Source of the DNA: an uncultured Bacteroidota bacterium
GTDB taxonomy: Bacteria > Bacteroidota > Bacteroidia > Flavobacteriales > Flavobacteriaceae
Direction of reading: 5' to 3'
Assembly: GCA_902557655.1 (NCBI GenBank)
Contig: CACEAZ010000010.1
Location: 1 to 57,902, forward strand
DNA: 57,902 bases
The notes under the pieces are model-generated. The model made no database searches. It was not told where the DNA came from and saw nothing but the letters and a program-made list of their open reading frames with translations. Positions 407-4,723 of this stretch are shown here, piece after piece. Numbering within the stretch: position 1 is the stretch's first letter; each line of letters begins with the position of its first letter. Both the position numbers and the translations under genes were made by a program.

Positions 407-2203
407 ATGAAAGATATAATTAATATATTGCCTAAAAATGTTGCAAATCAAATTGCTGCAGGTGAAGTAGTCCAAAGACCCGCGTCAGTTGTAAAAGAGC
501 TCCTTGAAAATTCTATTGATGCAGGAGCCTCTGAAATCACGATTCAAATTAAAGATGCCGGAAAAACACTTATTCAAATTATTGATAATGGTAAAGGCAT
601 GTCTAAGAAAGATGCATTATTATGTTTTGAAAGACATACTACATCTAAGATATCAAAAGCAACTGATTTATTTAATATCAGTACCAAGGGATTTAGAGGC
701 GAGGCACTTGCCAGTATAGCTGCAGTTTCACATGTAAGTTTGATAACAAAACAGCCAGGTATTGAATTAGGTTCTAATATCGATATTCAGGGTAGTGAAA
801 TTAAATCTAGTAGATCCGTTGTTAGTGAGGCAGGAACTACAATTTCTGTTAAGAATTTATTTTTTAATATTCCCGCAAGAAGAAATTTCTTAAAATCTGA
901 TAACGTAGAATTTAGGCATATTGCAAATGAATTTTTTAGAGTTTCATTATCACATCCTGAGATTAAATTTATTTTTATTAATAATGGTTCTGAAATTTAT
1001 AATTTGACAAATTCCTCTTTTAAAAAGAGGATAATAAACCTTTTTGGCTCAAAAACACAGGAAAAACTAGTTCCTGTTTCTGAGGAAACAGAAATTCTAA
1101 AAATTAATGGCTTTATTTTTAAACCAGAATATGCTAAAAAAACTAGAGGTGAACAATATTTTTTTGTAAATAACAGGTACATAAAGAGCCCTTATCTAAA
1201 CCACGCTATTAATTCTGCATTTGAAGGTTTGATTGATTTAAAGCATAATCCCTCATATTTTTTAAATCTTGAGGTTGATCCTTCAACAATTGATATCAAT
1301 ATTCATCCAACTAAGACTGAAATTAAGTTTGAAGATGAACATTCAATATATGCTATTTTAAGAGCAGCAGTAAAACACAGTATTGGTCAATACAGTATCT
1401 CACCTGTTTTGGATTTTGAAAGAGACAAATCTCTTGACATTCCTTATAATTATAAAAAGGATAAAACAAATTCTTCTGTTGGAATTGATATTGATTTAAA
1501 TTACAACCCCTTTGATCATTCCTCTAAAAAAAAGGATTATGTTAACCTTGATTCTTTTGATAAAAAAATAGAATCCCTGGAATTTTCATCTGAGAGTAAT
1601 AATTTTAGTGAAATTGACTTTAAAGAATTAAAAAGTAATATTTCTATTGAATCAACAATTCAGATTGACAAGAAATATATAGTAAATAAAAATAAATCAT
1701 CTTTAATAATTGTTAATCAACAAAGAGCGCATCAAAGGATTATTTACGAAAAATTTTTGCAATCAATAACTCTTAATAATTACGGTTCTCAAAAATTATT
1801 GCACCCAGTTGAATTTGATTTTAGCCCAGAAGAAATTTCGGTTCTAAATTCAAATAAAACAATACTGAATCAGTTTGGATTAATTTTTAAATCAAAAAAT
1901 AACCAATTAACTATCTCTTCAATGCCTGCATATGTTGAAATTGAGAATTTAAAAAACTCAATTGAGGACTTAATCTTTAATCTTCAAAACGAAATACCTA
2001 AAAATAGTTTCAGTGAATCTGATTTGATTTCAAAAGTTATGGCAAAAAGCTTATCAATTAAAAACGGAACGATTTTAGATTTGAAAGAACAACAATACCT
2101 AATGAATGCATTATTTGCCTGTAAAGAATCTATGATTTGCCCTTTTAACAAAAAAACTTATGTTAAGCTTGAATATAGCCAAATTGATAATATGTTTAAA
2201 TAA
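407..2203 (+). CDS. mutL: DNA mismatch repair protein MutL
   Basis: This 598-residue protein links MutS mismatch recognition to downstream repair. The N-terminal GHKL ATPase is intact: IAAGEVV, ENSIDAG with the catalytic Glu, DNGKGM, RHTTSK and GFRGEAL are all visible within about the first 110 residues, and the transducer domain follows to about residue 330. After a variable Asn/Ser-rich linker comes the C-terminal dimerisation domain. There the endonuclease motif DQHA(X)2E(X)4E reads NQQR..Q....E from residue 437, and the terminal zinc motif CPHGRPT reads CPFNKKT near residue 578. This copy therefore probably lacks the metal-dependent nickase activity. The stop overlaps the next start by one base (TAATG). 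Confidence 0.97.
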   Translation: MKDIINILPKNVANQIAAGEVVQRPASVVKELLENSIDAGASEITIQIKDAGKTLIQIIDNGKGMSKKDALLCFERHTTSKISKATDLFNISTKGFRGEALASIAAVSHVSLITKQPGIELGSNIDIQGSEIKSSRSVVSEAGTTISVKNLFFNIPARRNFLKSDNVEFRHIANEFFRVSLSHPEIKFIFINNGSEIYNLTNSSFKKRIINLFGSKTQEKLVPVSEETEILKINGFIFKPEYAKKTRGEQYFFVNNRYIKSPYLNHAINSAFEGLIDLKHNPSYFLNLEVDPSTIDINIHPTKTEIKFEDEHSIYAILRAAVKHSIGQYSISPVLDFERDKSLDIPYNYKKDKTNSSVGIDIDLNYNPFDHSSKKKDYVNLDSFDKKIESLEFSSESNNFSEIDFKELKSNISIESTIQIDKKYIVNKNKSSLIIVNQQRAHQRIIYEKFLQSITLNNYGSQKLLHPVEFDFSPEEISVLNSNKTILNQFGLIFKSKNNQLTISSMPAYVEIENLKNSIEDLIFNLQNEIPKNSFSESDLISKVMAKSLSIKNGTILDLKEQQYLMNALFACKESMICPFNKKTYVKLEYSQIDNMFK

Positions 2204-2955
2204 TGTATAGAGTATCTCCAATTGTTAAACAGCTATTAATTATCAACATTATTTTTTTTGTTGGCTCTACTTTATCTTTTAATTCAGATTTTATTTATTC
2301 TTTATTTGGTTTATACTTCCCTGAAAACCCGCAATTTAAATTTTGGCAGATAATCACTCATATGTTCATGCATGGAAATATTCAGCATATTTTATTTAAT
2401 ATGTTTGCATTGTGGATGTTTGGTTCGTCGGTTGAATCAATATTTGGTACAAAGAAATTTTTATTTTTTTATATTACATGTGGGTTGGGAGCCGCATTTA
2501 TACAAATTCTTTTTCTTTATTATGTTTTTTATTCAAATTTAGATTTATTAGTTAGTTCTGGATATGATCAGAGTAGTATATTAAATATTTTAGCTGAAGG
2601 AAAATATAATACCAGTTGGGAAGGTGTTTTGGGACCAAAAGGACTTTTAGACTTTAATTCATCTTTTTTTTCAAGTATGGTTGGAGCATCTGGTGCGATT
2701 ATGGGGGTGTTGGTAGCATTCGGTATGTTTTTCCCTGATAGTAAATTAATGCTAATATTTTTACCAGTTCCCATTAAAGCTAAATATTTTATTCCTGGCA
2801 TTATTCTACTTGATCTTTTTTCAGCAATCACTGGCCAAGCAATATTTAGTCCAAGTAATACTGCTTATGTTGCTCATATTGGTGGTGCATTGACAGGATT
2901 TTTGATTATGTATTACTGGAAGAAAAATCAATTCACTAAAAACAGATGGTACTAA
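2203..2955 (+). CDS. Rhomboid family intramembrane serine protease
   Basis: This is a 250-residue polytopic membrane protein. HGNIQHILFN lies in the second transmembrane helix (the HxxxN oxyanion region). GASGAIMG carries the nucleophile Ser163 and AHIGGALTG carries the catalytic His225, so the Ser-His dyad is complete. An extended loop at about residues 112-158 separates the first helices from the Ser helix. Rhomboids cleave transmembrane substrates within the bilayer; the substrate here is unknown. The gene starts on the last base of the mutL stop and overlaps the next rhomboid gene by 10 bases, so translation is likely coupled. A mutL-rhomboid-rhomboid order is common in Flavobacteriia. 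Confidence 0.93.
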   Translation: MYRVSPIVKQLLIINIIFFVGSTLSFNSDFIYSLFGLYFPENPQFKFWQIITHMFMHGNIQHILFNMFALWMFGSSVESIFGTKKFLFFYITCGLGAAFIQILFLYYVFYSNLDLLVSSGYDQSSILNILAEGKYNTSWEGVLGPKGLLDFNSSFFSSMVGASGAIMGVLVAFGMFFPDSKLMLIFLPVPIKAKYFIPGIILLDLFSAITGQAIFSPSNTAYVAHIGGALTGFLIMYYWKKNQFTKNRWY

Positions 2956-3704
2956 TGGATATATTAGGTAAACTAGGTATAGACCTAAAAAAAATAGATT
3001 TTTTTCAGAAAGTCATTGGAATCAATATACTTGTTTTTCTTTTTTTTAGATTTTCATATATTTTTAATTATCAAAGTTCTTTTTTAAAACTCTTCTCATT
3101 AGAAAATAAATTTTTTGAAAAACCTTGGTCAATAATTACTTATTCTTTTATTCATCAGGGAATATTTGACTTAATATTTATGGCTATTTTGTTGATATTC
3201 ACAACAAATGCTATAAAAAATCTACTTGGTGAAGAACTTCCCAAAAAACTTTTTGCTGTTGGTATTTTAATGGGTGGAATATTTTTTCTTTTTTTTAACG
3301 ATTCAAATGGTTCTTTGATAGGCGCATCTGCAGGAATTTCTTCTTTACTTTTATTCTTACTCCTAATGTCTCCAGATTTATCTGTAAAGCTTTTTAGATT
3401 TAGTATAAAATATAAGTACTTAATGGGACTCATTTTATTCATGGACTTTTTAAAGTTAATATCGCCAGGGGAATACGGAGTATACTCTCATATTGGGGGA
3501 TATTTGGCTGGAATGTTTTATTATTTTTCTCTTTATGGTTTTCCAAAACTTAAAGCAAAACCAACTACACGAAAAAGATATAAACATACTTATTCTAAAC
3601 AAAGTAAGGTTGATAAGATCCTTGATAAAATCAGTAAAAGTGGATATGATAGTTTAAATAGCGAGGAAAAAGAATTCCTTTTTAAACAAGGAGGTAAGAA
3701 ATGA
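2946..3704 (+). CDS. Second rhomboid family intramembrane protease with C-terminal cytoplasmic tail
   Basis: This 252-residue membrane protein is a diverged neighbour of the preceding rhomboid. Ser128 in GASAGISS and His182 in SHIGGYLAG provide the dyad. The HxxxN motif is altered: the region reads HQGIFDLIF without the Asn. After the last helix comes a basic tail and a short domain (DKILDKISKSGYDSL, then a terminal EEKEFL segment) that often ends Bacteroidota rhomboids. The 10-base overlap upstream and the ATGA overlap downstream put it in the mutL transcript. It is probably an active protease, but less certainly so than the first copy. Confidence 0.9.
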   Translation: MVLMDILGKLGIDLKKIDFFQKVIGINILVFLFFRFSYIFNYQSSFLKLFSLENKFFEKPWSIITYSFIHQGIFDLIFMAILLIFTTNAIKNLLGEELPKKLFAVGILMGGIFFLFFNDSNGSLIGASAGISSLLLFLLLMSPDLSVKLFRFSIKYKYLMGLILFMDFLKLISPGEYGVYSHIGGYLAGMFYYFSLYGFPKLKAKPTTRKRYKHTYSKQSKVDKILDKISKSGYDSLNSEEKEFLFKQGGKK

Positions 3705-4723
3705 AAAATCTTTCGATAATTGAAAAATTTTTATTTATAATAAATTCAGTCTTAGCTGTTCTTTTCTTGATTTCACTTTTACTTCCTCTTATTAATCCCG
3801 CTGTATTTCCATATTTATCAATATTAAGTTTGTTTTCCCCAATATTAATTGTGATAAATTTTTTATTTGTTTTTTTCTGGCTAGCGAAACTAAAAAAACA
3901 ATTTTTGTTGTCTACTATTATTTTATGTTTAGGTTATAATTCTGTTTTAAGCTTTATTAATTTTTCAAACAACTCTTTGTTTGTAGGCGGAGATAATTTG
4001 AGCGTACTTAGTTATAATGTAAGACTTTTTAATAAATACAACTGGATAAAGAGTGACGATATCGGTAATAAAATTAATAGTTTTTTAATTTCTGAAGACC
4101 CTGATATTATATGCTTGCAAGAGTTTCAAGACAATATAATTAATCTTTCCAATTATCCTTATAAATTTAAATTTTCAAAAGGGAGTAATGCTGGATATGG
4201 ACAAGCAATTTTTTCTAAATTTCCAATTATTAATAGGCAAAGAATAGATTTAGCTAGCTCTTCAAACAATGCTATTTTTGTTGATTTAAAGATAAATAAT
4301 GATACGATCAGACTTTATAATATACATTTACAATCGTTTTCTATTGAAAAAAAGATAGATCTATCTGCTGTAAACGTTGAAGAAAACAAAAAATTAGTCT
4401 CGAGAATTTCTAAGACTTTTATCAATCAATCAAAGCAGGTAAAATTACTATCACAAAGCCTAGGAAATAGCCCTTATAAAATCGTTTTAGCAGGAGATTT
4501 TAATAATACAGCCTTTTCGTATTCATATCGAAAGTTAATTGAAGGTTTAAAGGATAGTTTTATAGAAAAGGGTAATGGTTTAGGGATAACATTTAATTAT
4601 AATTTTATCCCTTTAAGAATAGATTTTATATTAGTTGATGACTATTTTAGGGTAAATAAATTTAAAACCTACAAGATTAATTTTTCTGATCACGAACCAA
4701 TATATACAGAATTTAACTTTTAA
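3701..4723 (+). CDS. Membrane-anchored endonuclease/exonuclease/phosphatase (EEP) family protein
   Basis: This 340-residue protein has two or three N-terminal hydrophobic segments (about residues 10-90) followed by an EEP fold. The motifs are LSYNVRLFN, DPDIICLQEFQ with the metal-binding Glu, IHLQS, LAGDFNNT (Asp/Asn catalytic pair), DFILVDD and the C-terminal SDHEP with the catalytic His. The family includes nucleases, phosphoinositide phosphatases and sphingomyelinases, so the substrate cannot be read from the sequence. The catalytic domain probably faces the periplasm. It overlaps the rhomboid stop by four bases and converges with the WbqC-like gene, overlapping it by four bases. Confidence 0.9.
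   Translation: MKNLSIIEKFLFIINSVLAVLFLISLLLPLINPAVFPYLSILSLFSPILIVINFLFVFFWLAKLKKQFLLSTIILCLGYNSVLSFINFSNNSLFVGGDNLSVLSYNVRLFNKYNWIKSDDIGNKINSFLISEDPDIICLQEFQDNIINLSNYPYKFKFSKGSNAGYGQAIFSKFPIINRQRIDLASSSNNAIFVDLKINNDTIRLYNIHLQSFSIEKKIDLSAVNVEENKKLVSRISKTFINQSKQVKLLSQSLGNSPYKIVLAGDFNNTAFSYSYRKLIEGLKDSFIEKGNGLGITFNYNFIPLRIDFILVDDYFRVNKFKTYKINFSDHEPIYTEFNF

Follow-up and report, generated by a model that had tools for sequence, protein, structure and literature searches.

Apparent loss of the endonuclease site of MutL in the class Bacteroidia, and how mismatch repair may begin without it

The window, by which we mean the whole stretch of 57,902 nucleotides of DNA that was analyzed, carries near its start the gene mutL (407–2203, + strand), an open reading frame of 598 amino acids without the endonuclease ligand set. 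Its membership of the MutL family is supported by Pfam matches above the cut-offs to HATPase_c_3 (PF13589, E 5e-14), DNA_mis_repair (PF01119, E 2e-36), and MutL_C (PF08676, E 3e-27), and also by the fold. The N-terminal ATPase and transducer domains (residues 1–330; 407–1396, + strand) have intact motifs, as the first-pass annotation had stated for the ATPase: DNGKGM, GFRGEAL, and NIHPTK are all present, and across 31 aligned MutLs the majority of their residues do not vary. The C-terminal domain (residues 408–598; 1628–2200, + strand) is predicted by AlphaFold2, with a pLDDT of 92.3, to have the MutL fold. The best structural match of this model is NgoL (3ncv; Z 19.3, rmsd 2.8, 184 residues), which was also ranked top by Foldseek. 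E. coli MutL (1x9z, Z 14.5) and BsuL (3kdk, Z 14.0) are tied behind it, and because of this tie the fold match cannot separate active from inactive MutLs.

In MutL endonucleases the metal ligands come from DQHA(X)2E(X)4E, ACR, and CPHGRP; the Arg of CPHGRP is catalytic, the Asp of the first motif may cap a helix instead of binding metal, and the ligand motifs are not conserved in MutLs that have no endonuclease activity, according to the relevant passages of one study (PMC10366529). The window protein has all three in degenerate form. The relic of the first, situated where a predicted helix begins, reads NQQRAHQRIIYE (residues 437–448; 1715–1750, + strand), with D replaced by N, H by Q, and the first E by Q, while the last E (448) is retained. 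Where ACR is expected, AKS is found (residues 546–548; 2042–2050, + strand), so that the Cys ligand has become Lys. In the place of CPHGRPT stands CPFNKKT (residues 578–584; 2138–2158, + strand), in which the Cys is retained, the His is replaced by Phe, and the catalytic Arg by Lys. These are the replacements claimed in the first-pass annotation, which placed the first from residue 437, gave the second as AKSLS at the Cys motif (residues 546–550; 2042–2056), and located the third near residue 578; each was borne out. For ligand scoring we took E473, C573, C604, and H606 as the relevant positions of B. subtilis MutL. Four of the five ligands, together with the helix-capping Asp, are lost from the window protein. 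The substitution D462N is reported to abolish the activity of B. subtilis MutL (PMC2965676), and Asn is the residue carried by the window's genus at that position. Judging from these residues, the endonuclease site has almost certainly been lost from this MutL, and nicking by the protein would not be expected.

Equivalent ligands at shifted positions, which the first-pass annotation had named as a finding that would overturn this view, were not found in the sequence alignments. A profile of 69 C-terminal domains aligned with B. subtilis MutL (3gab, E 1e-38) with no gap at any of the three motifs, and the alignment with N. gonorrhoeae MutL was gap-free there as well; taken with the retained MutL fold, this argues against a shift of the motifs. 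No newly conserved His was seen in the C-terminal columns of the group lacking the ligand set (hereafter the lost rows, as opposed to the intact rows).

Assembly or sequencing error was ruled out as the cause of the motif loss, since congeners agree: a MutL_C match was obtained in 16 of 20 sampled genomes of the same genus, each of the 16 with NQE or NQQ at the relic site. In a draw of 139 genomes from the class, whose name, Bacteroidia, is taken for these genomes from named loci, exactly one MutL_C match was found in 138. Among the 70 of these 138 MutLs that were read (L061–L130; 57 families), 67 are without the ligand set and three, all from the family labeled f96, keep it. The interpretation given in the first-pass annotation is partly supported: the motifs are missing, the ATPase is intact, and no substitute takes over class-wide, but the condition is not peculiar to this organism. 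Across the phylum, 171 MutL rows were scored, some genomes being counted twice and the MutLs of other classes being the best-scoring among the matches listed. All six marker residues are present in 42 of them (39 from other classes and the three from f96), and 129 have at most two of the five ligands (none in 30, one in 91, two in 8). Rows with three or four ligands did not occur, a gap that speaks against chance and fits the expectation that a broken site has no value. Named loci came from a ranking of 588 by their similarity to the window protein, of which the best 80 were taken, and are therefore a biased sample, the class draw being the fair one; the ACR Cys is present in none of them and the CPHGRP His in one, and at most two of the five ligands survive in any of them. 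Flavobacterium, Winogradskyella, Pedobacter, Mucilaginibacter, Algoriphagus, Cyclobacterium, Parabacteroides, Prevotellaceae, and Muribaculaceae are represented among these best 80. As far as sequence can tell, the loss of the endonuclease site is class-wide.

The timing of the loss was approached with trees. In a tree of 55 hand-picked rows, from which long rows and the motif columns had been removed, the lost Bacteroidia form a group (93/83, a branch below the starred level) with f96 as its sister, and the joint group (100/99) leaves the intact rows of other classes outside. At least three changes are needed on this tree, those beyond Bacteroidia being placed in another clade of the phylum, one that is weakly joined. 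A quick tree of 116 rows (80 lost Bacteroidia, 29 intact, and 7 other lost), for which rows with at least 62% identity to a kept row had been dropped and which also served for the column counts, agrees with it, though many of its forks are open and some of its branches long. In our reading, the site was lost a single time in the class, near its base and after f96 had split off, and its absence is hence an old state. A re-gain of the site by transfer in f96 is less likely given the sister position of that family. With a full endonuclease site and no downstream rhomboid gene, f96 (L061, L064, and L069) is a natural contrast group. MutLs without the nuclease set also occur in other classes, on separate branches (L031, L032, L036, L037, L043, L045, L131, L137, L138, L143, L145, L146, L155, and L156).

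The domain that lost the site is still under purifying selection within the genus (for example, the whole-gene dN and dS for L022/L025 are 0.081 and 0.81). Mean dN within the genus is 0.235 for the C-terminal domain and 0.107 for the ATPase part, the lowest of the three large regions, and the relic helix (residues 432–450, 19 codons), with a mean dN of 0.087, is the most constrained of the stretches compared. A few residues downstream lies QKLLHP (residues 462–467; 1790–1807, + strand), a candidate motif at a position conserved in both lost and intact groups, which we take to be the beta-clamp binding motif. In 80 non-redundant lost Bacteroidia rows the frequencies of Q462, L465, F466, and P467 are 0.96, 0.95, 0.91, and 0.90, and in 29 intact rows they are 1.00, 0.97, 0.93, and 0.90; the window protein has H at 466. 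By this motif the window protein would belong with the clamp-coupled MutLs. Contact with the clamp is not universal, as the MutL of a 0.49-Mb genome of the class has a degraded motif, NNIFLP.

MutS1 matched in 138 of the 139 class genomes (128 above the cut-off) and in 25 of 27 chosen relatives (24 above the cut-off). The window's own genome encodes it at C1:11917–14460, with a C-terminal QLDFF that we presume to be a clamp-binding-like motif. Searching that genome for MutH or a second MutL had been proposed in the first-pass annotation; neither takes over class-wide. At 81.7% completeness the own genome gave no match to MutH (PF02976), which matched in six of the 139 class genomes (five above the cut-off) and four of 296 phylum genomes. 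The matching ORFs are 352–625 amino acids long, apart from one of 213, compared with 229 for E. coli MutH, and they look to us like Sau3AI-type enzymes. For NucS there was likewise no match in the own genome, at the same 81.7% completeness, and 10 of the 139 class genomes matched (eight above the cut-off). MutH and NucS were rejected as class-wide replacements on these counts. So was a second, active MutL, as each of the 138 genomes has one MutL_C match; two matches were seen in four of the 296 genomes of the phylum draw, all outside the class, among the matches listed. A Dam-like match in the own genome scored 18.6 bits, below the cut-off, and 22 of 60 class genomes gave one (14 above the cut-off). 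No fusion to a nuclease was seen by eye in one long MutL and two long MutS frames. RNase HII, present in 58 of the 60 class genomes and in the own genome, was discarded as a universal nick source because the two smallest genomes gave no hit, and RecJ, present in 56 of the 60, as a universal exonuclease because it was absent from the searches of the own genome (81.7% complete) and of the 0.49-Mb genome.

Directly downstream of mutL are a rhomboid protease gene (2203–2955, + strand), a second rhomboid gene (2946–3704, + strand), and a gene for an Exo_endo_phos (EEP) protein (3701–4723, + strand) with, by eye, about three N-terminal membrane helices. The order mutL-rhomboid-rhomboid-EEP (2203–4723) is common to most of the Bacteroidia loci examined and was not seen at any MutL locus from other classes. 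A rhomboid gene lies directly 3' of mutL in 102 of 114 lost Bacteroidia rows, in none of 41 intact rows, and in none of 14 other lost rows; it does so in 66 of 78 named loci, drawn from the best 80 of 588. An EEP gene is at most 3.5 kb from mutL in 24 of 50 and 41 of 71 loci of two sets. Over 69 sequences the EEP catalytic residues reach a conservation of at least 0.85, and the protein had no PDB sequence match at E 0.01. Around its helices the mean number of K+R is 2.7 before helix 1, 0.6 between helices 1 and 2, and 2.7 between helices 2 and 3, followed by a mixed charge after helix 3 (2.2 K+R and 2.5 D+E), a pattern by which the catalytic domain is probably outside the cytoplasm. Because of this predicted topology the EEP protein was rejected as the nick source, despite its conserved catalytic residues. 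The link of the rhomboid and EEP genes with mutL is probably that of an inherited operon.

MutS and a nuclease-less MutL are retained even in two very small single-contig genomes, one of 0.34 Mb from the same order (100% complete) and the 0.49-Mb one from the class (93%). The two were searched with 32 query proteins (28 from E. coli and four others), and ten proteins were confirmed by Pfam. The 0.34-Mb genome has DnaE, DnaN, LigA, GyrB, RuvB, RuvC, RNase HI, ExoIII, RuvX, and RecJ, and gave no hit to the protein queries UvrD, PolA, DnaQ, RNase HII, XseA, SbcB, UvrC, RecB, RecD, Nth, Nfo, EndA, and MutH. The 0.49-Mb genome has UvrD, a stand-alone PolA-type 5' nuclease, a DnaQ/ExoX-like protein, Nth, RuvC, and RNase HI, and gave no hit to the protein queries RecJ, ExoIII, and RNase HII. 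RNase HI, RuvC, and a ligase are thus in both, and the 239 reciprocal best hits between them add RuvX, TatD-type, and DHH-type proteins (by Pfam on the 0.34-Mb copies). The Pfam scan of the 0.34-Mb genome covered 27 of its 323 ORFs, so an unrecognized nuclease could still be encoded there. That two such tiny genomes keep MutS and MutL with few recognized nucleases would favor repair from existing strand ends. Both also encode a DUF3276 protein with a weak PurA-like match (L291, 10526–10858), a small nucleic-acid-binding candidate. Published gene lists of insect symbionts are similar in kind: mutL and mutS alone are named among replication and repair genes in the pertinent passage on Karelsulcia of one host (PMC12016543), and that on Karelsulcia of one leafhopper group gives only dnaE, mutS, and mutL for replication and repair (PMC13383532). 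The beta-proteobacterial partners are described, by contrast, as having lost mutS and mutL (PMC10333215). This comparison is one of gene lists, the MutL sequences compared including none named as Karelsulcia's.

With the MutL endonucleases of B. subtilis, N. gonorrhoeae, and A. aeolicus, which have no MutH, the window protein shares the C-terminal fold, a gap-free alignment, the clamp motif, and a genome without detected MutH; it differs from them in being degenerate in all three metal motifs. E. coli MutL is likewise without the endonuclease motif and alike in fold (1x9z, Z 14.5), but it works alongside MutH and Dam, whereas in Bacteroidia MutH is not general and Dam-like genes are patchy; the window protein, unlike that of E. 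coli, retains the relic helix QRAHQRIIYE. Human MLH1 and PMS1 coexist with a nuclease-bearing paralogue, unlike the MutL of Bacteroidia genomes, which show one MutL_C match each. They are nevertheless MutL homologues without nuclease, as here, PMS1 being described as lacking the endonuclease motif (PMC2965676).

Mismatch repair in these bacteria probably begins by some route other than MutL nicking. The most economical mechanism, which we judge slightly likelier to be right than wrong, is that the nuclease-dead MutL is a matchmaker directing exonucleases to existing strand ends. The endonuclease site, on this account, would have been lost once, early in Bacteroidia and as a whole ligand set, with the fold and the clamp motif retained, and MutL would go on acting as an ATP-driven matchmaker that connects MutS with the beta clamp and with proteins further downstream. 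Repair would start at the new-strand ends left by replication, namely those of Okazaki fragments and of RNA-primer removal, with the clamp supplying orientation and general exonucleases carrying out the excision, and no dedicated nicking enzyme would be required. This is consistent with the presence of MutS in 138 of the 139 class genomes beside no class-wide MutH, NucS, or second MutL, and with continued selection on a C-terminal domain whose relic helix is the most constrained of the stretches compared and whose clamp motif is kept. Against it, the leading strand offers fewer existing ends, an unrecognized nuclease may be present, the clamp motif is degraded (NNIFLP) in the 0.49-Mb genome, and host proteins could help in reduced symbionts. 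The literature search found no experiment demonstrating working mismatch repair in these bacteria. The 0.34-Mb and 0.49-Mb genomes, which retain MutS and nuclease-less MutL, point toward the use of existing ends, and the Karelsulcia gene lists are alike (PMC13383532). A broader version, plausible to us and just short of one that we would favor, is that nearly all Bacteroidia, gut Bacteroidales and aquatic Flavobacteriia included, repair mismatches without a nicking enzyme, clamp-bound dead MutL and MutS directing exonucleases to replication ends, and that in insect symbionts just MutS, MutL, a polymerase, the clamp, and one exonuclease would suffice.

The main rival is a hidden partner nuclease, non-homologous to MutH and recruited by MutL or the clamp, that would have replaced the nicking activity near the base of the class. 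The ligand set vanished together on one branch, which fits a replacement, and E. coli offers a precedent in which MutH nicks and MutL does not. The gene order mutL-rhomboid-rhomboid-EEP accompanies the loss in the class (102 of 114 lost rows against 0 of 41 intact), but the rhomboid link amounts to one evolutionary event, the other lost clade is without rhomboid, and the EEP neighbor, besides being predicted outside the cytoplasm, is found that close (3.5 kb) in no more than 24 of 50 loci of one set and 41 of 71 of the other. MutH and NucS are not general, and the recognized candidates common to the two smallest genomes shrink to RNase HI, RuvC, RuvX, TatD DNase, and DHH phosphoesterase. We hold this explanation to be rather doubtful.

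Two further readings appear weaker still. MutS and MutL might be kept for a non-classical role, such as rejecting recombination between unlike DNAs or stalling a faulty replication fork, as could be imagined for proteins with neither a nicking site nor MutH. We consider this improbable, because MutS1 is nearly universal and the own MutS has the clamp-like QLDFF. In reduced symbionts few repair genes outlast MutS and MutL, which would suit such a role, but the listed Karelsulcia lineages keep almost no other replication or repair genes, and a function in recombination is difficult to imagine in them (PMC12016543, PMC13383532). The other reading, that the site still cuts DNA with other ligands, such as H442, E448, C572, and E520, is to our mind very improbable. 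H442, R444, and E448 of the relic helix are retained at 0.85, 0.91, and 0.86 in lost rows; they are universal in intact MutLs, however, and H442 and E448 are for that reason not new ligands. Only three columns are enriched in lost over intact rows, namely D493 (0.55 vs. 0.24), E520 (0.61 vs. 0.07), and C572 (2120–2122, + strand; Cys in 0.89 vs. 0.31), and E520 reaches 0.61 at most. In any case, the window protein has lost the helix-capping Asp and all but one of the five ligands. Lys occupies the position of the catalytic Arg in 0.76 of lost rows, and the corresponding R406K Aquifex MutL is reported to be weakly active in vitro, but R500K Thermus MutL failed to complement in vivo (PMC10366529).

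How the new strand is recognized in bacteria without MutH is an open question, and the common answer centers on nicking by MutL itself. A class that includes Flavobacterium, Parabacteroides, and Prevotellaceae and has MutS and MutL but no nicking site is a natural test of that answer: either replication ends suffice in Bacteroidia, or another nuclease remains to be found, and both alternatives could be tested in a laboratory Flavobacterium. No report of MutL nuclease loss in Bacteroidetes appeared in the titles and abstract openings searched; the likeliest reviews lie outside that search, and priority is not claimed.

Some individual genomes and proteins of these collections stand apart. One nearly complete class genome (G395) has no MutL_C match, and another (G357) has no MutS1 match and a strong Dam-like gene. 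Drift in the MutL C-terminal domains of L130 (family f5), L127, L128, and L129 has been strong enough to degrade even the clamp motif or the relic helix. A 1360-amino acid frame (L262, 158–4237) joins MutS to a subtilase-like stretch, and is probably the product of a lost stop or a sequencing error, not a real fusion.
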